Shown here: piece after piece, positions 25,295-45,121 of the stretch | Layout: every line of letters begins with the position of its first letter | Position numbering within the stretch: position 1 is the first letter of the stretch | Assembly: GCF_014695575.1 (NCBI RefSeq) | Contig: NZ_JACJOO010000067.1 | Span: forward strand, 1-64,000 | Direction of reading: 5' to 3' | From: Leptolyngbya sp. FACHB-8 | GTDB taxonomy: Bacteria > Cyanobacteriota > Cyanobacteriia > Elainellales > Elainellaceae | Length of the DNA stretch: 64,000 nucleotides | The notes under the pieces: generated by a model | Told to the model about the DNA's origin: nothing | Seen by the model: only the letters and a program-made list of their open reading frames with translations | Databases searched by the model: none | Translations under genes and position numbers: made by a program

Positions 25295-25849
25295 ATGGTT
25301 TTAGATCCTCACACTTTCATGGCAAAGATGGAAGCTCGAATGGACTTTTCTACCGCTGATAAAGAGCTTCTATTAAGTAATGCAAATTGGGGATTAGAAA
25401 TTGCCTCTGACATGTCCGATCACTTCTACAGCTATATGGGACGTGACCCGGAAATGGGCGTCATCCTCAACGCCTCTGAAGGTCGGGTTCATCGGCTGAA
25501 AGAAACCTTCGTTCTGTGGTTTCACGAAATGTTTACCGGCATGGATAATTGGGGAGACGAGTACGCCGATCGCCGCTGGAAAATCGGTCTAGTTCACGTC
25601 AAGATTGGCATTGGTCCTCAGCACGTCGTTCCAGCCATGGCAACGGTTGTTCATGAGGCTGGTAAGCGAGCGATCGCTGATGGTAAATCTGAAAATTTAC
25701 GCGATGCCCTGGGTAAGATCTGCATGATCGACCTGGCATTTATTGAACAGGCTTACATTGAAGTTTCTTCAACGGCTGTGTTGAAAGAAACAGGCTGGAC
25801 TGAGGGCCTATTCCGGCGCTTAATTACAACAGGTGCTGGAGCAATGTAA
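25295..25849 (+). CDS. Stand-alone protoglobin (globin-coupled-sensor-type haem domain)
   Basis: This 184-residue haem protein begins at the ATG at 25295 behind ACAGGAGT; the 24 codons upstream are discarded. It is a single globin domain of the protoglobin/HemAT class: a long N-terminal helix, then RRWKIGLVHVKIGIGP, where H101 is the expected proximal haem ligand in the family's IGxVHxxIG motif. No kinase, GGDEF or methyl-accepting domain follows, so any O2, NO or CO signal must be passed by protein contact. It is the first gene of a same-strand cluster with Roadblock, GTPase, DUF4388 and hemerythrin genes. Confidence 0.9.
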   Translation: MVLDPHTFMAKMEARMDFSTADKELLLSNANWGLEIASDMSDHFYSYMGRDPEMGVILNASEGRVHRLKETFVLWFHEMFTGMDNWGDEYADRRWKIGLVHVKIGIGPQHVVPAMATVVHEAGKRAIADGKSENLRDALGKICMIDLAFIEQAYIEVSSTAVLKETGWTEGLFRRLITTGAGAM

Positions 25850-25888
25850 GAGCACCAGGCTCATCCTTGAAAATCTCTTTTAGAGGAT

Positions 25889-25954
25889 GTTTGAAACGTT
25901 TTAATGAGGGTTTTATTTTCCGTACACAGCATACGAAAAATGAACGTTTCAAAC
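25889..25954. repeat. Hairpin between protoglobin and Roadblock genes
   Basis: Arms GTTTGAAACGTT (25889-25900) and AACGTTTCAAAC (25943-25954), a perfect 12-bp stem around a 42-nt interior. It may attenuate transcription from the protoglobin gene into the next gene. Confidence 0.55.
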
Positions 25955-26064
25955 ACCCTACCAGGCTTATGATCCAACACTATCTATTTCGTTAATTTTC
26001 CAGAAGTTGTTGACCCTCTATTTCTCCTGACTTCCGTTCACTCCCACTAACAAAGGAAATCACA

Positions 26065-26436
26065 ATGGCTATTAGCACCGAAAAGTTGAATATGGTTTTG
26101 CAGCAGTTCGTCACAGCTACCAGTGACGTTCAAGGGGCAGCCCTGGTAACCCCCGATGGTCTGCCTTTGGCTACGAGCCTACCCGCAGGTATGGATGAAG
26201 AACGGGTTTCAGCGATGTCTGCCGCTATGTTGTCCCTGGGCGAGCGGATTGGTTCAGAGTTGGCACGGGGTGGTGTTGATCGAATCTACGTAGAAGGAGA
26301 TCAGGGCTACGGCGTGCTGACCAGCTGCGGCGAAGACGCCGTATTCCTAGTGTTGGCCAGCAAAGCGGCCAAGCAGGGTGTACTGATGCTTGAGATCAAG
26401 CGCACCCTGGGGGAATTGAAGTTACTCATGATGTAA
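26065..26436 (+). CDS. Roadblock/LC7 domain protein (MglB-like)
   Basis: This 123-residue single-domain Roadblock/LC7 protein is well conserved along its length (VQGAALVTPDGLPLATSLP, AMSAAMLSLGERIGSELARG, LTSCGEDAVFLVLAS). These proteins dimerise and act as regulators or GTPase-activating partners of MglA-like small GTPases, as MglB does in cell polarity. An AAAGGA ribosome site precedes the ATG. The GTPase gene follows 73 bp downstream, the classic pairing for this family. Confidence 0.94.
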   Translation: MAISTEKLNMVLQQFVTATSDVQGAALVTPDGLPLATSLPAGMDEERVSAMSAAMLSLGERIGSELARGGVDRIYVEGDQGYGVLTSCGEDAVFLVLASKAAKQGVLMLEIKRTLGELKLLMM

Positions 26437-26450
26437 AGTTCCGATTCGCT

Positions 26451-26475
26451 GTGGCGGAGTCCCAGGCTCCGCCAC
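26451..26475 (+). terminator. Hairpin between Roadblock and GTPase genes
   Basis: Arms GTGGCGGAG and CTCCGCCAC (9 bp) around TCCCAGG with no T-run. It is a likely mRNA-processing or partial attenuation structure rather than a full stop. Confidence 0.45.
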
Positions 26476-26509
26476 CTTCTTCACCCCTATCCCTTCATCG
26501 GTCTCTTCC

Positions 26510-27049
26510 ATGGAAATCATGCGGCTTGTGGTGACTGGCCCGGTTGGGTCGGGCAAGTCCACGTTTATTCGCTCTGTTAGCGAAATTGAGGTCGTCGATA
26601 CTGATCGCCACGCCACCGACGAAACTCTACTCATCAAAAAACGCACCACCGTTGCCTTTGACTTTGGCCGCCTCCAGTTTGGGCCAGAAATGGCATTGCA
26701 CCTCTACGGAACTCCTGGACAATCGCGCTTCGACTTTATGTGGGACATTTTGATCCGCAAAGCTCACGCGTATATCTTGCTGATTGCGGCCCACCGTCCC
26801 ATGGAGTTTCGCCACTCGCGCCGCATTCTGGCTTTTATGAAACAGCGATCGCAAATTCCCATGATCATCGGCCTCACCCATACAGACTGCGAGGGAGCCT
26901 GGGAAGCCGAGAACGTGGCGATCGCCCTGGGCTACGTCCTCCCTGAAACCCGTCCCCTAATGATTACGGTTAATCCCACGGAATCTGCTTCCGTTGCCGA
27001 AGCCATCATTACCCTCGTCCAACATTCTATGCAGGGCTGTCTTGTCTAA
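26510..27049 (+). CDS. Small Ras-like GTPase of the COG2229/MglA-related group
   Basis: This 179-residue GTPase has Walker A/G1 GPVGSGKST (10-18), a switch II motif YGTPGQ (66-71) typical of the bacterial COG2229 group in place of DxxGQ, and THTD (123-126) at the usual N/TKxD position, so the guanine-specificity lysine is replaced by His. In this group the partner Roadblock protein is usually encoded next door, as here and in actinobacterial conservons. It is probably a cytosolic polarity or signalling switch. ATG at 26510 or 26519 could be used. Confidence 0.92.
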   Translation: MEIMRLVVTGPVGSGKSTFIRSVSEIEVVDTDRHATDETLLIKKRTTVAFDFGRLQFGPEMALHLYGTPGQSRFDFMWDILIRKAHAYILLIAAHRPMEFRHSRRILAFMKQRSQIPMIIGLTHTDCEGAWEAENVAIALGYVLPETRPLMITVNPTESASVAEAIITLVQHSMQGCLV

Positions 27050-27142
27050 TAGTTGATGTTGCGTGCGCGGCCCAAACCAACCTTTCTCAGAGCGTCGCAT
27101 CTACAGGTCAGCGCATAAGCCCAGCCCTGTCCATCAGCCCCC

Positions 27143-27199
27143 ATTTGAAATGTTGATTTTTTGTAGATTAATCAGCCACGCAAAATCAACATCTCAAAT
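27143..27199. repeat. Hairpin upstream of the DUF4388 gene
   Basis: An 18-bp stem (27143-27160 with 27182-27199), one mismatch, around a 21-nt loop. It lies 40 nt before the DUF4388 start codon and could influence its expression. Confidence 0.6.
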
Positions 27200-27242
27200 C
27201 TCTCTCAAATCCATTGCAGCGACTACCTAGGTGAGATGTGTC

Positions 27243-28127
27243 ATGACCATTACCGGCTATCTATCAGAGTTTTCCTTAGCAGAACTCTTCCAAATTTTGG
27301 AACAGGGAACGAAATCGGGGTTGTTGACCATCTGCTCCCTGTTGGAACCGCAAGCACCGAAACAAGGCAATCACTACATCTGGTTTAAGCAGGGGCGCAT
27401 TGTTGCTGCCTCCAATACTCTCGACCAGCAAGGCTTAATGCGCTTGATTAATCAGCGAGGCTGGTTGGGAGAGCGAGCGGCTAACCGGCTCACTCAAAAC
27501 TGCACAGTGGGAACTCCTGCCGGAGTTTGCCTAAAAACCCAGGGAGCATTAACTGTTGAACAACTCAAGTTGTTGTTCTACTCCCAGGTCATGCGTCAGG
27601 TCTGTGCCCTGTTTGAACTAGAAAATGGCTGGTTTCAGTTTGATCCACAAGCACCAATTCCCGTAGCTGAATTGACAGGATTAAATGCATCAGCAACCGA
27701 AGTGACGCTAGCAGGACTGCGAGCGCTAAAAGATTGGTCAGCCTTACTGGACAAGCTACCCGATCCCTCCTCAGCCCTGGTTAGTGTGATTCATGGTCAG
27801 CCACAGTTCAAGCTCAGCCCAACAGAGTGGCAGGTCTGGGAATTTGCTAAGGGAACAGTGGCGTTGGGGGCGATCGCCAAACAGCTTCAGATTTCCGTCG
27901 AAAAAGTACAGCAGGTGGCTTTTCGGCTAACGGTAGTGGGTTTGGCGGAAGAAGTGCCGATGGTTTCGGAGCCCCTGGTAGCCATGCCAGATCCAGAACC
28001 TCTCGTAGATGCTCCCATCAGTGGCTTTGGATCCCACTCGGCACAAACTGAAGCAGTACCAGCAGGCCACGGGGTTAGCCAATCCTTTCTACAGAATTTG
28101 GTTGGCTTCTTGAAAGGCAAACTCTAA
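27243..28127 (+). CDS. DUF4388 (PatA N-terminal-like) domain protein
   Basis: This 294-residue protein starts at ATG 27243 behind AGGTGAG. The N-terminal region (MTITGYLSEFSLAELFQILE) is the DUF4388 domain found in PatA-type response regulators and in gliding or gas-vesicle regulators. It carries the usual pattern TKSGLLTI, HYIWFKQGRIVAASN and LLFYSQVMRQVCALFELENGW. The C-terminal half is less conserved, with a winged-helix-like stretch (about 185-230). No receiver domain. Probably a signalling adaptor for the GTPase/Roadblock pair encoded just upstream (inference). Confidence 0.85.
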   Translation: MTITGYLSEFSLAELFQILEQGTKSGLLTICSLLEPQAPKQGNHYIWFKQGRIVAASNTLDQQGLMRLINQRGWLGERAANRLTQNCTVGTPAGVCLKTQGALTVEQLKLLFYSQVMRQVCALFELENGWFQFDPQAPIPVAELTGLNASATEVTLAGLRALKDWSALLDKLPDPSSALVSVIHGQPQFKLSPTEWQVWEFAKGTVALGAIAKQLQISVEKVQQVAFRLTVVGLAEEVPMVSEPLVAMPDPEPLVDAPISGFGSHSAQTEAVPAGHGVSQSFLQNLVGFLKGKL

Positions 28128-28144
28128 GTTTTCCCAAAGGTCTT

Positions 28145-28348
28145 ATGCTCATCTTCGATTTCTTACTCGGGTTGTTCGAATTTGTAGAGTTTCTTGCCAG
28201 CCCGCTGGGTCTATCTACCAGCCTTTGGGGAAGCGCTTACTGGATTTTGCTCCAACTCTGGCACGTCAGCGTTCCCTCGGCTCTGTGGCTGCCACTCATT
28301 CCGGCCTTCTACCTCTACATCTACCTGGATAGATTGGCATGCCGTTAG
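28145..28348 (+). CDS. Small hydrophobic membrane protein
   Basis: This 67-residue product is nearly all hydrophobic, with two likely transmembrane segments (about 3-20 and 30-62) and a short charged C-terminus. It starts 18 nt after the DUF4388 stop and is on the same strand, so it would be co-transcribed. I do not recognise the family. It could anchor the cluster's signalling proteins to the membrane, but no motif shows this. Confidence 0.5.
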   Translation: MLIFDFLLGLFEFVEFLASPLGLSTSLWGSAYWILLQLWHVSVPSALWLPLIPAFYLYIYLDRLACR

Positions 28349-28462
28349 CCCTTCGGCTATGCCTCTCTCACCATTGCGCAATCTAGGGATAACGGCTCTG
28401 GTGTTCCATCACCTCCCTAGATTAGGCATGCTTTCTTCCTCTCTGCGATTCAAGGAGTGTTT

Positions 28463-28888
28463 ATGCAACGGTTTGCCTGGAACGATTCCCTCAGCACTGG
28501 CGTCCCAATGATTGATGCCCATCACAAGGAACTGATCGCGGCAGTGAATGATCTGGCTCAGGCGATTGAACAGGGCCAGGGGTCAAATGCTATTAAAAAG
28601 CTGATTATGTTTCTTAAGTACTATGCTGAGTGGCATTTTGATCACGAAGAAAAATGCGCAGCCAAGCACCAATGCCCTATGGCCGACACCAATGAGAAGG
28701 CGCATGCCGCTTTCATTGAAACCTTTGGTAATTTACACGAGCAATATCGCCAGAGCAACGCCAGCGAAGCCGTTGCCCAGCAGATTTACGATGAGCTGTC
28801 CCGCTGGCTGGTAGGACACATTATGAATATTGATACAGAGATTGGCCGATGCCTCAGGCAGCCAAAAACGGTTCTTCCTACGTCATAG
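28463..28888 (+). CDS. Bacteriohemerythrin with one altered iron ligand
   Basis: This 141-residue four-helix protein starts at ATG 28463 behind AAGGAG and binds O2 (or NO) at a non-haem di-iron site. Ligands seen are H21 (IDAHHKEL), H58 and E62 (HFDHEE), H81, H119 and D124 (HIMNID). At the first position of the usual HxxxH pair there is N77 (NEKAH), so one of the seven canonical ligands is missing. This could change O2 binding or turn the site into a sensor. It closes the protoglobin/Roadblock/GTPase gene group. Confidence 0.93.
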   Translation: MQRFAWNDSLSTGVPMIDAHHKELIAAVNDLAQAIEQGQGSNAIKKLIMFLKYYAEWHFDHEEKCAAKHQCPMADTNEKAHAAFIETFGNLHEQYRQSNASEAVAQQIYDELSRWLVGHIMNIDTEIGRCLRQPKTVLPTS

Positions 28889-28928
28889 AGGGCTTATAGC
28901 CTGACGCAACTTAGGATCGCGTATTTAT

Positions 28929-28995
28929 TAACCTGTAATTCTTGTTGTGAGAGGGGCGGCAAAGCCGCCCTTCTCACAACAAGAATTACAGGTTA
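28929..28995. repeat. Long hairpin (32-bp stem) inside a larger imperfect inverted repeat
   Basis: Arms 28929-28960 and 28964-28995 pair with one mismatch around AAA; the inner part is GGGCGGC-AAA-GCCGCCC. Outer sequences TTAGGATCGCG (about 28911-28921) and CGTGATCCTTAG (about 29004-29015) are also inverted with a few mismatches, giving a MITE-like unit of about 105 bp. It lies about 40 nt after the hemerythrin stop. Confidence 0.75.
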
Positions 28996-29085
28996 TTTTG
29001 TTCGTGATCCTTAGTAATCGACGGCTGAAGCCTGCCCACCTTCAAATATAGGTTGCTCTTTGCTGTTTACTCCTAGCCAGAACGG

Positions 29086-29125
29086 TTCATTGTTGAAAGG
29101 CCACGGAAAGCTTTTCAACAATGAA
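29086..29125. repeat. Hairpin, 13-bp stem
   Basis: Arms TTCATTGTTGAAA (29086-29098) and TTTCAACAATGAA (29113-29125) around a GC-containing loop. Part of a row of four hairpins in the gap 28889-29651. Confidence 0.65.
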
Positions 29126-29157
29126 TTTCCTGTTTCTAAGCGCGTAGCACCACAGGC

Positions 29158-29214
29158 GTTGATTACAAAGGAGGAGTGGCGTGCGTCGCACGCCACTCCT
29201 CCTTTGTAATCAAC
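29158..29214. repeat. Perfect hairpin, 27-bp stem
   Basis: Perfect 27-bp stem (29158-29184 with 29188-29214), loop GTC, core GGCGTGC-GTC-GCACGCC. Confidence 0.85.
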
Positions 29215-29349
29215 CTACTTGTAACAGGTGCATTTCACCTTATATAAGCAGGCAAATCCATTCACAACACTCGGCTATCCCCTTACACGCCGCTATAAGG
29301 GGATTTAAGGCTGAAATAATACCTTTGTTCTGGTCAGGTTTCAAACATG

Positions 29350-29404
29350 TGGATGGGGTGTGGTGAAAGGGGCATTTCGTGTTCCTTTCACCACACCCCA
29401 TCCA
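29350..29404. repeat. Perfect hairpin, 21-bp stem, 13-nt loop
   Basis: Arms 29350-29370 and 29384-29404, starting TGGATGGGGTGTGG, pair perfectly. It is the last of four hairpins before the MBOAT gene. The remaining 250 bp to the gene show no other feature. Confidence 0.8.
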
Positions 29405-36457: not shown

Positions 36458-39400
36458 TCAAAGATTAAGGCGGCTCAATTCCTCCAGCAGTAAAGCTTCG
36501 GCTTCCTCATCAGAAATTTCGTTCAGGGTTTGGAGGGAATCCCCAGTGGCGTTGGGTGAAGGGTCAGTTGGTGACACGGAAGTAAGCTCCGGAACAAGCA
36601 GGCTGATGAGATAGGTACCGAGAGCATCAGGAGTAGGGTGATCAAACAGTAGAGTGATGGGTAAAGGGCGACCCAACTCCGTTTGTAGGCGATTACGCAA
36701 CTCAACAGAGGTCAGAGAATCCAACCCCAATTCTGTGAAGCCAAGAGTGGAGTCGAGCCGAGTCACTGAAATTCCGAGAACGGTGGCCACCTGAGTTTGC
36801 ACGTACTGGGTGATCAAAGCAGGACGAGCCGACAGCTCAGTCTGTTCGAGTTGCTGAGTTAGAGCAGAGGTTGTTGCTGGCTGCACAGAGACAGCAGGAC
36901 GGGCATGGGAGGTCACGATGTCCTTTAGAAAAGCAGGAACCCCCTCCGCTTTCGTCCATTGAGCCCAATCAATCGGCAATACACTGATTTGTGCCGATGA
37001 GGAACTGAGCAGATGTTCCAGGACTGTGAGGGCCGTTTCTGGGGCAAGGAATTGGATACCGCGATCGCCCAAGTTTTTTCGCACCACCGGATCATTCGCC
37101 ATACCACTGCCCTCCCAGGCTCCCCAATTGATGCTGAGGGCGGGCAATCCCTGGCTTTGCCGGAAATGGGCCAGGGCATCGAGGAAGGCATTGGCAGCAG
37201 CATAGCTCCCCTGTCCAGCGGACCCGAGCAAAGCCGCCGCTGAGGAGAACAGCACAAAGCAATCCAATGGTTGCGCATGGGTCAGGGTGTGAAGATTCCA
37301 GGCCCCTTGCACCTTTGGAAGCAACACCTGAGCCAGCCGCTCTGGAGTTTGCTGAAGCAAACTACCATCATCCAAAACACCCGCAGCATGGAAGATTCCG
37401 CACAGAGGTGGAGTTGCGCTGCCCCAGGAGAAATGCAGGTAGGGTTGTAGAAGCATGGCTAATCCATCTGCATCAGCGACATCTCCTGTCAGGATGTGAA
37501 TGGTAGCTCCCGTCTGGCGAAGGGTGGCGATCGCCCGTTCTACCTCTACCGACGGGGCGGAGCGACCCATCAACAACACATAACGAGCACCCAGGCCGAC
37601 AAGCCACTGGGCCACCTGTAACCCTAAGGCTCCCAGACCACCCGTGATGAGGTAGGAACCATCGGGCCGTGGGCTGAAAGTAGGGGTCACTACCAGTTTC
37701 CCTAAATGCCGCCCCTGCTGCATGGTGCGGAAAGCTTCGATAGTATCTTTGGCTGCCAGTACTTGGTGGTGAATGGGGTGAAGCTTCCCAGCCTGCAGCA
37801 GACGCAGCACATCCTGTAGGAGAGACTGGATCTGCCCAGGATCAGCTTGGGTCATCTCCATTAAATCCACTACGGTATAAGCGACATCGGGCCGAACCTC
37901 AGCGACCTGTTGCGATCGCCAGATTCCAGCCTTCCCAATCTCCAAAAAATGTCCACCTGATTTCAAGAGAGACAGGCTCTTGGGAATGAAGTCTCCATTT
38001 AGAGAATTAAGTATCAGGTCAACCCCTTCACCCTGGGTCGCAGCACGGATCTGATCGGCAAACTCCAGGGTGCGTGAGTTGTAGAGGTGTTGGATACCGA
38101 GCGATCGCAAGAACTCCCATTTACTGGGAGAGGCTGTCGCAAAAATCTCTGCACCAACCAGCTGTGCGAGCTGAATTGCGGCTTGTCCGACACCTCCGGC
38201 AGCCGCGTGAATGAGAACGCGATCGCCCTGCTTTAACTGCCCCACCTTAAAGAGGGTGTAATAGGCTGTGAGAAACACCACAGGGATCGTAGCCGCTTCT
38301 GCAAAGCTAAGAAATTCGGGTTTGGGGGCAACCAGCCGGGCATCAACGGTGACAAAATCGCTGAAGCTGGCGGGGGCGATCGCGACAACCGCATCCCCAA
38401 CGTGCAGATCAGCAACACCCTCGCCAACCTGCACCACTGTTCCAGCACACTCCAGCCCCAACGGTCCAGCTTCACCCGGGTACAATCCCAGCGCGTTCAG
38501 CACATCCCGAAAGTTCAGCCCCGTAGCTCGCACCCGAATTTCTACCTCGCCCGCCGCTGGAGCCCTGCGAGCCACGGGCTGCCACGTCAAATTTTCAAGA
38601 GTACCCCGTTGGGAAATGTGGAGCTGCCGTCCCAGTCGGTCTGTTGCAATCGTGGGCTTTTCGATCGGGGAAGCCAGACGTGCAACATAACGCTGCCCCC
38701 GCCGAAACGCAACCTGATCTTCCAGGGGGGTGTTGGTCAGTTCTTGAAAGAACTGAGCAGGATCGAAATTATCGTGCTCTAAGTCGATTCGGGTACAGCG
38801 CAGTTCTGGATGCTCCAGAGCAATAACACGCCCCAACCCCCACAGCGGAGAAGCACTGGGATCGATCGGGTCAATGGATGAAACGGATTGGCTGCCCTGA
38901 GTAACGATCCACAACCGGGGTGGATTCGTAGCCGCAACCAATTTCTGTACCAGTTGCAACACCGTTTGGGTATGGCGCAGGGCCTGCGCTGGGCTGGATT
39001 CTCCTCCATCTGCCAGGTACAGAACATGTTGAATATTGGACAGAGCCTTAGGAGCCATCTGCCAGGTTGCGGGATCTCCTGTTTGGGTCCATACCGTTTG
39101 TTGTTGGGCCGTTAGTGCATGGGCCAGGGCATCGGTGAGGGGAGAGGGGGCACCGGGTACCAGTAACCATTGGGCAGGTGATAGGGAGGTTGTAGAGGAA
39201 AGAGGCTGCAATTGCCAAACCACCTCATACAGCCAATCCGCCGGGTTAGGTTCCGCAACAGGAGTCATGGAAGTACTCAAGGCTCCAGCCTCAACTCGCT
39301 GGGCTGTTAAGCCATCCACCTTGATGAGCACCTGCCCCCGCTCATCTAATAGATACACAGTAGCCGTGACAAAGGCTTTATCCTCTCGTAACGGCTGAAG

Positions 39401-42400
39401 CTGGATATAACTCCATACGGCTTCAGGGATGGGATGGAAGTACTGAAGTTGATCAATACCCACAGGCAGATAGGTCGCGCGTTCGCTTTCTGGCAACACC
39501 GCCAGAACCATTTGGAAGCAAGCATCCAATAAAGCCGGGTGAATGTGATACTCCCCTCTATGGCTTTGGTTTCGAAGGTCTTCTGGGGGAACAGATGAGT
39601 TAATTGGCCCTTTTACCCAACCCAAGACTTCGCCATCGTGAGATGCAAATTGTTGAATTCCTTGAAACGAAGGGCCATAATTCAACCCCAGTTTTTGACA
39701 AGTTTGGTAATGTTGCACAACTTCCTCAGACCTAGGCCCCCTGGAAGATGGGCTAACCTGCATGTCCATCAAGCGCCGTTGGAGTGCAGGCAAATCTATC
39801 GGTTCTGCTTGACCTGGCTCCAACGCCAGCTCCCCAGAGCAATGCAATGTCCATTCATCCCCAGTGCCACTCAGGATCTGGAAGGTTGCACCTTGAGCCT
39901 GACGATTGAGTAGAGTTTGGAGAGTTTGAGGAGCATCCGATAGCCGCAGCGGTTGTGAAATTGTGACATTCTTTAGAGTTATCGGCTGATCAGGCCAGAG
40001 GGTTTTGGCAGCGGCGATCGCCATCTCCACATATGCGGTTCCTGGCATAATAACGGTCTCGTTGACCTGGTGATCCGTTAGCCAGGCCGGTTGTGTATCT
40101 CGCAGCTCACTTTGAAACACAACGGTATCGAGTGCCAGAGACAAGCGACCCCCCAGCAATGGGTGCCCCCCAAGCCCTTGAGGCTGAGAGTGTGGATGGG
40201 TAGAACGGACAGTCCCTGGAGCATCTAACCAGTAACGTTGGCGTTGAAACGGGTAGGTCGGCAGAGAGATCCGTTGAGCCTCTATGCCATCCAGCACAGC
40301 AGACCATTCAATCGCCTCCCCAGCTTCATATAACGTCCCCAGGCTTTGCAGGAGAGTCTGAATTTCCGATTGAGCAGGCCGCAAGCTGGGCAGGTATTGC
40401 ATCGCTAAATCCTCAGCCGCCCCAAGAAGCTGTGGATTCGGGAGGTCATCTGGGCTAAGGTCCTCGACTTCAAGTAGTTGAGCATCCGATCGGTGAGCTA
40501 GAACCGATCGCGCCATACCCAACAGCACCGGCTTGGGGCCGCACTCTAGTAGAAACCGGTAGTTGGCTCGGCACAACGTTTCGACACTGCGAGCAAACTG
40601 TACGGGCTGGCAAATGTGATCGCACCAGTACTCGGCTGTGGCAATTTCAGGGCCAACGAACTCTCCGGTAACGTTCGAAACCAATGGCAGGGTGGGCACA
40701 CGGTAGGCAATCCGAGTGGCGATCGCCCGGAACTCGGCCACCATGGGCTGCATCAACGGCGAATGAAAGGCATGAGACACGGACAGAGGCGTTGTTTTAA
40801 TTCCTGCAACACTCAGGTGGTGGGCAAAGGCTTCCAGTTTCTCCAAAGGCCCCGAGAGAACCGAGTTCTCAGGGCTATTCAGGGCGGCGATCGCCACTCC
40901 CGGATACCGTTTTAGCCAGGGCTGGAGAACATCCGCAGCGGCCATCACCGCTAGCATTCCACCATTGCTGGGGAGAGCTTGCATCAGGCGTCCACGAGCG
41001 GCGATCAGCGTCAACGCATCCTCCAGAGTAAAAACTCCGGCAATACAGGCGGCGACGTACTCTCCAACACTATGCCCCATTACCACAGCAGGCTGAATTC
41101 CCCAGGATTTCCAAAGCTGGGCCAGGGCATACTCCAACGCAAATAGGGCAGGCTGGGTGTAAGCCGTCTGATTCAACACGTCAGAAGAAGCCAACTCCCC
41201 CGCTATTTCGGGACGTGAGGGATAGAGGAGGCTCACCAAGGGTTGATCTAGATGGAATTGAAGAATTTCAGCACACTGATCAATTGCCGCACGGAACAGG
41301 GGATAGCGATCGTACAGTTCACGACCCATACCAGAATATTGAGAACCCTGGCCCGTGAAGAGAAAGGCAACTTGAGAGGGCAGGGCGGTAGGGGAGCAGG
41401 GCGGTAGAGCAGAGGAGAGAAGAGATTGAAGTTGGCGATGGAGGTGTTCGGTGGAGTCGGCAACGAGAGCAAGACGGCAGCTGTTGGGCGATCGCCCAAC
41501 AGCTGCCGTCCAGCAAATATCCTCCAGGCTAGTGCTGAGGTGAGTTTGGAGAAATTGCAGATAGCGCTGGGCCAGCTCCGTCAGGGCCTGTGGGGTGCGG
41601 GCGGAGAGAGGGAGGAGATGGGGATGGGTAGATAGTTTCTCTTCTGCCTTCTTTTGTTGGGTTGTTGCCTCTTCAAGAATGACGTGTACATTGGTGCCGC
41701 CGATACCGAGAGAGTTGACACCGGCCCGGCGGGGATGACCTTCGGGGTGCCAATCTCGCAGTTGCGTATTGACGAAGAAGGGGCTATTGGGAAAATCAAT
41801 TTGCGGATTGGGTGCCTCGAAATGAAGGCTGGGAGGTATCTTGCCGTAGTGTACGCTGAGGGCCGCTTTGATGAAGCCGACTACCCCAGAGGCAATGTTG
41901 AGGTGCCCCACATTAGTTTTAACGGAGCCGATCGCACAAAATTGCTTCTTCTGAGTGCTGGCGCGGAAAGCCTGACTCAGGGCGGCCACCTCGATGGGGT
42001 CACCCATCGAGGTGCCAGTGCCGTGGGCTTCTAGATAAGTGATGGTTTCCGGGTCAATATCTGAGAGGGCGATCGCCTCTGTCGCCACAGAGGTTTGCCC
42101 TTCTCCTCGGGGAGCCAGGTAGCCAACTTTCTGGCTACCATCGTTGCCCATGGCAGAGCCTTTGACCACCGCGTAAATGTGGTCGTGGTCAGCGATCGCG
42201 GCTTCCAACGGCTTCAGCACCACCATCCCAACTCCACTGCCAAACAGCGTCCCCCGAGCGTTGGCATCAAAGGCGCGGCAGTGACCATCCGGCGTCAAAA
42301 TCATTCCTTCCTGGAACAAATGCCCGGCTTTTTGTGGAGTATGGACTGAGACCCCCCCGGCCAACGCCATATCGCACTCGCCTGCCAGCAAACTTTGACA

Positions 42401-45121
42401 GGCCATGTGTATGGCTACCAGCGATGTGGAGCAAGCCGTCTGCACATTGACACTGGGGCCGCGAAGGTTCAGCTTATAAGACACCCGCGTCGTCAGATAA
42501 TCCTTATCATTCGCCACCGTCAGTTGAAACCCTCCCAGAGAACCGAGGGTCAGCGTATCCAGAGGTTCGTGGGGATCGAGGCGATGGCGATTGGGGTAAA
42601 CGTGGTTGAGCAGGTACGTGTTCATCGAGGCCCCCGCGTAGATGGCGATCGCCCCCCCATAGCTCAACGGATCGTACCCGGCATCCTCCAGGCTTTCCCA
42701 GGCGCACTCCAGCATAAGCCGTTGCTGGGGGTCGAGCAGTTCTGCCTCACGGGGATTCAGCCCAAAAAATTCTGCATCAAAAGATTCCACATCATCCAGA
42801 ATGGGGCTGGCTTTGACGTAGTTGGGATGGTTGACTAACTCCGGTGGCACCCCGGAGGCTAGCAATTCTTCATCGCTGAAGAAAGCAATCGATTCCACTC
42901 CATCACACAGGTTTTGCCAGAACTCCGTCAGGTTTTTCGCACCGGGGAAACGGCCTGCCATGCCAATGACGGCAATATCTGTTGTACGCACCTGGGGTTT
43001 ACGACGTTGGGCACGTTGCTGCGCCTCTTGAAGCGTGGTGTTCGAAGACGAATCCTGTTCTAGAAAAGTAGCCAGCGATCGCACCGTTGAATGCTGGAAC
43101 AAATCTACCGTTGTTACCGATCGTTCCAACCGCTCCAGAATCTGGGCCATCACCTGCATGAGCGCTAGAGACGTTCCCCCCAATTCAAAAAAGTTTTCAT
43201 CCAGCCCCACCGATGGCAGGTTCAGAACTGCCTGCCAGATAGCGGCAATTTCCTGTTGCAGCCTGCTCTGGGGCAGAGATTGAGTGGACGTGGGGCGATC
43301 GCGCCAAAGCTGGGCCATCTCCTCCACGATGCGATCAAACTTTCCGGCGGCAAATCGCTGGCTGAGCTGACTGCGCTGGATTTTACCAATACTGGTTTTG
43401 GGAATGGCAGATCTTTCTACGGGAATCAAGAAGTCTGGATTGACACCAATCGTCTCGATCACCTGGCGACGGATACGGCCCAATAAATCTGCCGTGACTT
43501 GAGTGGAATCGATGGGGTGGAAGAAGATAGCGACGCGATCGGTTGTGTCGTGCGATCGCCGTACCCCGCAGGCCGCCGTGAACGATACGTCAATTTCCGG
43601 TAGTTCCTCAACGGCTGCCTCAATTTCGTGATTATAGAAGTTGGCCCCATTAATGATGATGACGTCCTTCTGGCGCCCGGTTAGGGTCAGCCGCCCCTGT
43701 TGCAAAAAGCCTAAATCTCCTGTGTTGAACCATCCGTCTGCCGTAAAAACCTCTGCATTCGCATCCGGTCGGTTGTAATATCCCTGGGTAACCGTTGCTC
43801 CCTTCACTTGCAGGGCTCCGATAGTACCTTCAGGAACCACAACATTTTGGTGATTCACAATCCGCAGCGCCACACCAGGAATTGGCTCGCCTAAATCCAC
43901 CAGAGCATTTTCATCCTGAGCAATGGTTTCGGCAAAGTTGTGGGAGTGAACAATGCCGGAGCAGGTTTCTGACATACCATAGCCGGGGCTAACAGCGGTT
44001 TTGCTCAAACCATGGGGAGCCAGCAACTCCAGAAACCGACGAGTCGTCTTGCCTACGACAGCTTCCGCCCCATTGCCCATCCAACGTATCGTCGACAAAT
44101 TCCACTGCCGCTGACTTAAAGCTTCTGCGCGATCGTTGATCAATCCATAGGCAAAATTAGGGGCCCAGGTGGCAGTTACCCGGTAGCGCTCCAGCACATC
44201 CAGCCACCGCAATGGATCCTGTAACACCCACTCATTGGCCACCTGAATCTGCTCGCACCCCAGCATGATGGGGGTGAGGTGGAACATAACGATACTGGCT
44301 ACATGCTCTAAAGGCATCCAGTTGAGCTGGATGGAATTTGCCGTTAACCCGTTGACCGTAGCCATACCGTAGGTGCTGACCCGCAAGTTTCGGGTACTCA
44401 GCATCACGCCTTTTGGCAAACCGGTACTCCCTGAGGTCAAGATCAGCAGAGCCAATGCATCTAAATCAGGGCGATAAAAATCCTCATGGGGAGCATAGCT
44501 CTCCAAATCTTCAATGGAACAGATCCATTCACCCCGTACCAGAGAAGCCGTATGCTGGGATTTGGGCAGAACCTTGGAAGCTCCTTGGCGCGATCCTTCA
44601 CTCTCCCCAACGGTGTTTTGGGCTGATGGGACAAGGGTGCGATCGCAAAACTCCCGAATTTCCCTCTCTAACTGTCGCTCGGTCACAATGACTGGATCAT
44701 CCAACAGCGCTAATGCGCCACGCAGGATCGCGGACTTACTATTGTCCGTCATATAATCCGGTGCCACGGGTACAGGTACAGGTACAAAGCCCCCCAGAAA
44801 GCAGGCCCACAGAGCAGCCAAAAAATCAGCACTTTGAGGGCATAGCACAATCACTTTTGTTTGGGGTTGTACCCCCCTGGCCTGCAGTCCTCTCAGGATG
44901 CATTGAGCCCGTAGCAACAATTCACGGTACGTTTGACGTCGTTCTTGCCCATCAGCACCCAAATAAGTGATGCCCCGAGATGACTTCGCCGCGCGCAGGA
45001 GCAAATCGGGCAAGGTCAACGTCCAATCAAACGTTGAGGGAAGGGGAATACCGGGGTGCAGCGACGGGTTAGCAATGGGTGATGATGTCGTGTTCTGATT
45101 GCGATCGCCCTTTTCCATCAC
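36458..45121 (-). CDS. Type I PKS with N-terminal AMP-ligase: AL-ACP-KS-AT-DH-ER-KR-ACP
   Basis: A 2887-residue megasynthase. Domains: fatty-acid/aryl AMP-ligase (about 30-600; [10 protein letters not shown] at 229-238); ACP1 (Ser651, GGTS); KS (Cys897 in TACSTS, H1033, H1073); AT (Ser1351 in GHSVGE; HAFH 1450-1453, predicting malonyl-CoA); DH (H1684, D1866; motif [10 protein letters not shown] has Glu for the usual Gly); ER (NADPH loop AAAGGVGQA from 2306); KR (GGLGALG 2494-2500, S2626, Y2640, LDD motif, B-type); ACP2 (Ser2802). All active sites appear present, so one fully reduced two-carbon extension of an activated acid is expected. There is no thioesterase. The protein ends in [19 protein letters not shown], like a docking helix, yet no partner PKS/NRPS gene follows. 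The AMP-ligase substrate (fatty or aryl acid) is uncertain. Confidence 0.95.
41473..41510. other. 38-bp perfect palindrome inside the PKS coding sequence
   Basis: A perfect palindrome without a loop, centred on the HIP1 sequence GGGCGATCGCCC with outer arms starting GACGGCAGCTGTT. It encodes [12 protein letters not shown] in the KS-AT linker (about residues 1205-1216), where related PKSs usually read TANxGRSxFxxR. Confidence 0.95.

Follow-up and report, generated by a model that had tools for sequence, protein, structure and literature searches.

A conserved protoglobin, Roadblock, GTPase and PATAN gene set in Cyanobacteria as a possible gas-responsive MglA/MglB-type switch

Introduction

In Myxococcus xanthus and Thermus, the small GTPase MglA (Group 1) is encoded beside the Roadblock protein MglB, and genes for PATAN proteins are sometimes near (Wuichet and Sogaard-Andersen 2014, PMC4316618, which credits MglB near PATAN to Makarova et al. 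2006). Roadblock proteins regulate MglA-type GTPases, MglB being the GTPase-activating protein of MglA (PMC4316618, PMC4476040). Here we describe a locus of Leptolyngbya sp. FACHB-8 in which a stand-alone protoglobin gene accompanies such a pair and a gene for a DUF4388/PATAN protein. This four-gene core is conserved in Cyanobacteria, protoglobins recur beside such GTPases in other phyla, and the set may form a gas-responsive switch. The locus lies at 25295-28888 (+) of the window, by which we mean the whole 64,000-nucleotide stretch analysed (contig NZ_JACJOO010000067.1, positions 1 to 64,000), in a genome of 6.9 Mb.

The likeness to described systems is partial in each case. Group 1 MglA has TVPGQ with an Arg finger, whereas the window GTPase has GTPGQ and TT in its G2 motif, and a protoglobin belongs to its cluster. 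MglA Group 5 includes Cyanobacteria and occasionally has PATAN near, but its neighbourhoods vary widely (PMC4316618), whereas protoglobin is a regular cyanobacterial neighbour here. The actinobacterial conservon (CvnA-D) also groups the genes of a Roadblock protein and a Group 2 GTPase (PMC4316618). We rejected membership of the conservon class because a histidine kinase and a CvnC-like protein are missing among the six window proteins by Pfam. The latter was judged by what we take a CvnC protein to look like.

A haem globin is joined to a Roadblock domain in HGbRL of Methylacidiphilum infernorum, whose authors propose a signal relay from globin to Roadblock (PMC4476040). Unlike the genes described here, HGbRL is a fusion in a single chain, its globin being of a different group (38% identity to HGbI); it was described in 2015 as confined to one genus and has a methyltransferase as operon partner; the MglA/MglB-like pair of Methylacidiphilum is a gene pair separate from it (PMC4476040). 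Since the HGbRL globin belongs to another group, the coupling of a globin to a Roadblock protein has apparently evolved repeatedly. Globin-coupled sensors and the Thermosynechococcus protoglobin are of the same protoglobin family as the window protein, which PDB 8h17 matches over its full length, but the sensors carry their output domains in the same chain, whereas here the outputs would be separate proteins.

The word 'globin' is absent from the main text of PMC4316618, and we found no description of a protoglobin as partner of a Roadblock protein or MglA-type GTPase in titles or abstract openings among the open-licence PMC records listed. The first-pass annotation, made from the window's letters, had known of no described system with this gene set; that holds for the protoglobin partner in the literature searched, but PATAN near MglA/MglB and the HGbRL fusion are published.

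Gene content of the locus

The locus consists of six open reading frames (ORFs), all on the + strand:

25295-25849, +: stand-alone protoglobin, 184 amino acids (aa), with proximal-type His101, Tyr45 and Trp75 (Pfam Protoglobin PF11563, E=1e-16, 61.8 bits against a cut-off of 25; full-length PDB 8h17 match; residue counts)
26065-26436, +: Roadblock/LC7 protein (MglB-like), 123 aa, with an Asp-Gly pair, Asp at 31 (Robl_LC7 PF03259, E=1.5e-17, 63.5 bits)
26510-27049, +: MglA-type small GTPase, 179 aa, with G1 GPVGSGKS, G2 TT, G3 GTPGQ and G4 THTD (Pfam ATP_bind_1, 53.4 bits, above cut-off, and Ras, 22.5 bits against 21.6; alignments; motifs)
27243-28127, +: DUF4388/PATAN protein, 294 aa, with a C-terminal extension ending in a hydrophobic/basic segment (PF14332, E=4e-27, 95.1 bits against a cut-off of 25, residues 4-166; 33-sequence alignment)
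28145-28348, +: small hydrophobic protein, 67 aa, a doubtful part of the module (19-residue means 0.56 to 1.77; no Pfam or NCBIfam match)
28463-28888, +: bacteriohemerythrin, 141 aa, accessory, with H21, H58, E62, H81, H119 and D124, and Asn77 in place of one His (Pfam Hemerythrin E=1e-12; NCBIfam NF033749, 100.2 bits against a cut-off of 84; DcrH alignment)

The ORF list, Pfam and NCBIfam bear out the six same-strand genes that the first-pass annotation had placed here, with no family match for the 67-aa protein. Start codons were chosen by comparison with orthologues for the protoglobin (ATG 25295), the DUF4388 protein (ATG 27243) and the hemerythrin (ATG 28463).

Conservation in Cyanobacteria

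We searched 292 genomes sampled evenly from the phylum, with thresholds of E<=1e-10 for the GTPase and E<=1e-4 for protoglobin, and counted as neighbours same-strand genes no more than 4 kb away. The GTPase was found in 25 genomes (27 places) and protoglobin in 27 (34 places), the two together in 24 (Fisher p = 8e-31). Strong Roadblock matches fell at 28 places, in exactly the 25 GTPase genomes; thirteen more genomes gave weak matches only (E 3e-9 to 1e-4) and were excluded from the Roadblock Fisher test, which used the 28 strong places. A Roadblock gene lies near the GTPase at 27 of 27 places, a protoglobin gene at 25 and a hemerythrin gene at 5, so the co-occurrence search that the first-pass annotation had proposed came out positive for the first two partners and narrower for the third. 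From the protoglobin side, 25 of 34 places have a GTPase nearby. The other nine comprise six extra copies in cluster-bearing genomes and three places in GTPase-free genomes, these last being a decayed cluster (protoglobin and a 160-aa protein with a DUF4388 gene shortened to 179 aa, GTPase and Roadblock being lost), a 40-residue remnant and a distant protein in a longer frame.

Neighbourhoods were tabulated for 20 loci fetched from among the 27 GTPase places. Every one of them has Roadblock, GTPase and DUF4388 genes together, some of the DUF4388 matches being only 35 to 45% identical, and 18 have protoglobin. At least five gene orders occur among the cyanobacterial loci (denoted by L numbers):

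protoglobin-Roadblock-GTPase-DUF4388: window, L043
Roadblock-GTPase-DUF4388-protoglobin: L029
protoglobin-Roadblock-DUF4388-GTPase: L045
DUF4388-GTPase-Roadblock-protoglobin: L047
DUF4388-DUF4388-Roadblock-protoglobin-GTPase: L048

The same gene set is found in small cyanobacteria of one family, f18 (L043, L146, L147), which we take as Thermosynechococcus because Tlr1989 is the closest solved match to the window protoglobin. Conservation beyond close relatives, on the same strand, in permuted orders and in other phyla strongly supports the four-gene core of protoglobin, Roadblock, GTPase and DUF4388 as a functional gene set. The six-gene module of the first-pass annotation is therefore partly supported: the core is conserved outside very close relatives, but the hemerythrin is narrower in distribution and the 67-aa protein a weak member.

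The protoglobin

The window protoglobin has the length of a stand-alone protein. His101 is kept in 51 and Tyr45 in 50 of 55 aligned protoglobin rows, an alignment that has the window protein in two rows and a fragment in one, and that also takes in unlinked and longer proteins. The assignment of His101 as a proximal haem-type histidine, made in the first-pass annotation, agrees with this conservation and with its alignment to the His of solved globin sensors; Tyr45 is presumably the distal residue. By what is known of the family, the protein would bind haem and gas. Its closest solved match, over the full query length (E=8.5e-79), is PDB 8h17, 'Tlr1989 protein', a name whose pattern we take to point to Thermosynechococcus. 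A Thermosynechococcus elongatus protoglobin, NP_682779, is tabulated in PMC1457004, and our guess is that the two are the same protein. No paper for Tlr1989 was found in the open-licence PMC literature, nor was 8H17, which was searched there only in combination with other terms.

One locus, L045, has exchanged its globin. Its Roadblock, GTPase and DUF4388 proteins are of cyanobacterial type (median identity 0.69, 0.62 and 0.46), and its protoglobin (Pfam Protoglobin, 112.6 bits) shares 53% identity with the Pseudoxanthomonas one (L055) and 24 to 33% with the cyanobacterial ones. A Pseudoxanthomonas-type protoglobin thus sits amid cyanobacterial partners; on the simplest reading, this slot calls for some globin or other.

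Roadblock protein, GTPase and DUF4388 protein

The Roadblock protein marks the genome's only place of the Robl_LC7 family at E<=0.001 and has the Asp-Gly pair noted for Group 2-5 partners in the comparison of PMC4316618. In the GTPase, G67-Q71 (the G3 motif) and T46-T47 (G2) are invariant in alignments of 22 and 12 sequences. GTPGQ in G3 and a Thr replacing Arg in G2 are the signature of MglA Groups 2-5 (PMC4316618), with which the window GTPase goes by these motifs; its G4, THTD, has no Lys, unlike the Group 5 consensus [NT]KxD. The GTPase profile had no match in PDB at 1e-6. By family knowledge, the Roadblock protein would control the GTPase.

The DUF4388 protein is not a PATAN response regulator of the PixE or PixG type, having no Response_reg match up to E=1, and a comparison with PDB gave one match, at E=0.77. 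In nearly all of 33 aligned DUF4388 proteins near such GTPases, a hydrophobic/basic C-terminal segment is seen by eye, perhaps for membrane or partner contact.

Protoglobin clusters in other phyla

We scanned named genomes with the GTPase profile and took the best 80 of 587 confirmed loci, 74 of them non-cyanobacterial. These genomes were selected by GTPase, not by globin, and the assignments of metagenome-assembled genomes (MAGs) may be wrong. Gene maps with a distance check placed a protoglobin beside the GTPase and/or Roadblock gene at eight non-cyanobacterial loci among the 80:

L055 and L056, Pseudoxanthomonas: protoglobin Pfam-confirmed in L055
L085, Pseudomonas citronellolis: no Roadblock seen
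L120, Chromatiales MAG
L122, Methylobacter marinus: protoglobin Pfam-confirmed; hemerythrin ~2 kb upstream of the GTPase
L124, gammaproteobacterial MAG
L073, WOR-3 MAG: protoglobin Pfam-confirmed
L119, Caldiserica MAG: protoglobin Pfam-confirmed; no Roadblock seen, short contig

Across the 74 genomes, Pfam Protoglobin matched at 45 places in 26 genomes. Seventeen of the 45 were stand-alone, meaning that the open frame did not exceed 280 aa (a cut-off we chose), and 11 of these 17 adjoin a GTPase and/or Roadblock gene, at the eight loci listed and at L154, L156 and L158. The first 50 of the 74 genomes held all eight listed loci; the remaining 24 added one stand-alone, unlinked protoglobin.

Other small proteins accompany such GTPases. 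PAS proteins lie near the clusters at 10 beta- or gammaproteobacterial loci (E 1e-56 or better; two by Pfam), and PAS occurs together with protoglobin at L120, L122 and L156. PAS genes at Group 3-like GTPase clusters include L111:9623-10099, L117:9654-10130, L122:10535-11011 and L156:5457-5975, several of them directly 3' of the Roadblock gene. A 160-aa family without a Pfam match for L030 and L108, and with a weak V4R match (E=0.13) for L054, is present in 16 of the 292 cyanobacterial genomes, with a member close to the GTPase at 10 of its 27 places; members include L030:9185-9673 (-), L054:7002-7481 (+) and L108:9240-9710 (+). In Halothiobacillus the gene stands between GTPase and Roadblock, and the Leptolyngbya genome carries it twice, each time outside the window. 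At 22 loci a 212-220 aa protein with no Pfam match adjoins the GTPase, for example L156:7012-7671 (-) and L122:8541-9176 (+); judged by eye, it is perhaps a second, divergent Roadblock protein.

Hemerythrin and the small hydrophobic protein

The first-pass annotation had made the hemerythrin a second gas sensor of the module. Its close subfamily (>=56% identity) occurs in 5 of 292 genomes and always beside the GTPase; hemerythrins of any kind (E<=1e-10) occur in 31 genomes, the other 26 being more distant. With only 5 of 27 GTPase places occupied, we rejected it as a core member. Asn77 stands at the position of the first His of HxxxH in the solved DcrH domain, as in all five cyanobacterial module hemerythrins, and the L122 hemerythrin has His there. 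On the residues that we take to be the di-iron ligands, the set is incomplete, with one usual His ligand missing, and gas binding by the window hemerythrin is uncertain because Asn77 replaces that His. The place of the hemerythrin in the module has narrower support than that of the four core genes.

Relatives of the 67-aa protein were found in 2 further genomes of the 292, one without linkage to such a GTPase, and among fetched loci only in L030 and L049. It was rejected as a general anchor, being known from 3 of 292 genomes including its own, one of them unlinked; the earlier proposal of a small membrane anchor is weak for a protein so little conserved (one linked relative in the sample, plus L049).

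Proposed switch and its alternatives

Evidence on the output comes from three clusters. In the actinobacterial locus L093 (8891-16491), a Roadblock-DUF4388-GTPase trio is followed by a T2SSE gene (E=2e-140), a second T2SSE gene, T2SSF and an N_methyl pilin-like protein (Pfam), and in L099 (8824-16214), also actinobacterial, the trio precedes the same three motor and platform genes, pilB-, pilT- and pilC-like by similarity; a third locus, L087, is cut off by the end of its contig. In cyanobacterial L044 the trio is followed by PATAN-receiver, CheY-like, CheW and GAF proteins. The Leptolyngbya genome has two adjacent T2SSE-family ATPases, PilB- and PilT-like by size and order. Cyanobacterial PATAN-receiver proteins interact with PilB1 (PMC7690835, PMC9090330), and this interaction and the gene context suggest a pilus output for the window set. 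Of the two outputs named in the first-pass annotation, motility is plausible on these grounds but cell-pole organisation found no support.

We propose a gas-responsive MglA/MglB-type GTPase switch with protoglobin as sensor and PATAN output on type IV pili, a reading to which we give about an even chance. With a haem ligated by His101, the protoglobin would bind oxygen (O2) or nitric oxide (NO) and signal its ligand state to either the GTPase or the Roadblock protein. The latter, as regulator, would switch the GTPase between its GTP and GDP forms; the DUF4388/PATAN protein would sense that state and act on the motor that extends type IV pili, and O2 or NO would in this way alter twitching or pilus use. 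The hemerythrin may be an optional second gas or redox input. The step from gas to pilus is one we infer, since protoglobin and pilus genes share no cluster among these loci.

If this reading is right, a haem gas sensor controls a Ras-like bacterial GTPase in trans. There would be a testable route from O2 or NO to twitching cyanobacteria, and cyanobacterial protoglobins, whose role is to our knowledge unclear, would gain one. Such protoglobins have been on record since at least 2006 (PMC1457004), and motility assays exist for Thermosynechococcus (PMC9090330). Among the PMC records listed, the nearest to such an input for MglA-type switches is the HGbRL fusion, with its proposed signalling via the Roadblock domain (PMC4476040). 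A wider proposal is tentative, and we rate it somewhat short of even: a widespread class of plug-in gas or redox GTPase switches might exist, in which stand-alone sensors (protoglobin, hemerythrin, PAS, the 160-aa family) would work in trans on one common Roadblock-GTPase core, the outputs being PATAN or receiver/winged-helix proteins; in cyanobacteria, an O2/NO signal would then reach type IV pilus movement with no chemoreceptor involved.

Several observations weigh against a protoglobin-driven pilus switch. Two of the 27 GTPase places have no protoglobin and six genomes carry an extra unlinked copy; therefore neither half strictly needs the other nearby. Across 20 loci, mostly from Cyanobacteria, the distance matrices of Roadblock, GTPase and DUF4388 correlate mutually at r 0.81-0.89, and those of protoglobin with the three more weakly, at 0.35 (p=0.09), 0.48 and 0.42; without L045 (19 loci) the protoglobin values rise to 0.45, 0.53 and 0.65 (all p=0.0005), still below the 0.81-0.90 that the other three span over both sets. 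In the Caldiserica protoglobin (L119:4855-5424, +), beside DUF4388 and GTPase genes, Tyr replaces the proximal His and Ala replaces Tyr45. Six of the 17 stand-alone non-cyanobacterial protoglobins are unlinked, some near contig ends, and the majority of the 74 genomes have no stand-alone protoglobin. The pilus link comes from two actinobacterial loci and one cyanobacterial locus, with no protoglobin in any of these clusters, and the published PilB1 partners carry a receiver, for which the window DUF4388 protein has no match. By eye, the C-terminal part of that protein appears winged-helix-like, which would suit gene regulation too.

The same gas-sensing switch might act on gene expression, the DUF4388 C-terminal part binding DNA or a transcription partner, which we regard as unlikely. 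A winged-helix-like C-terminal part is predicted for MglA Group 3 cluster proteins, and a transcriptional role has been proposed for the receiver and winged-helix protein of those clusters (Wuichet and Sogaard-Andersen, PMC4316618); at 13 of the fetched loci, all from family f6 and two with the cluster decayed, genes for a NarL-type kinase and regulator are found close by. However, PATAN-receiver proteins interact with PilB1 (PMC7690835, PMC9090330), the trio precedes pilus genes in L093 and L099, and Pfam finds no DNA-binding match in the DUF4388 C-terminal part.

It is similarly improbable, in our estimate, that the trio is a switch for another signal and that protoglobin and hemerythrin are metabolic, serving to detoxify NO, to store O2 or to protect a protein nearby. 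The Methanosarcina protoglobin is reported to have nitrite reductase and peroxynitrite chemistry (PMC4020757), and the extra unlinked copies in six genomes fit such a role. A detoxifying enzyme would, however, be unlikely to remain beside a GTPase across permuted orders and several phyla; the in-slot replacement in L045 also speaks against it, and Pfam finds no reductase among the six window proteins. Chance or lineage-specific clustering without function is very improbable: the hemerythrin and 67-aa protein are sporadic, but p = 8e-31, linkage at 25 of 27 places, at least five orders and several phyla stand against it, as do the flanking glycosyltransferase and MBOAT genes of the window set, which had no tblastn match (E<=1e-3) in 20 fetched cyanobacterial loci, and for the four core genes chance is refuted by the co-occurrence and neighbourhood counts.

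Intergenic and flanking sequence

The gaps between the six genes are, in order, 215, 73, 193, 17 and 114 bases. Inverted repeats lie in the protoglobin/Roadblock gap (25884-25959), in the GTPase/DUF4388 gap (27143-27199) and ahead of the hemerythrin gene (28375-28428). A promoter and terminator scan gave 7 promoter-like sites against 5.1 in shuffles and 1 terminator-like site against 5.6; no terminator-like site fell inside the gene set, the sole one being downstream at 29084. Three long inverted repeats follow the hemerythrin gene at 28909-29404, with arms of 52, 28 and 21 nucleotides and complementarity of 85%, 100% and 100%. Further along the window, at 36458-45121 (-), an ORF of 2887 aa resembles, by eye, an AMP-ligase joined to a type I polyketide synthase.

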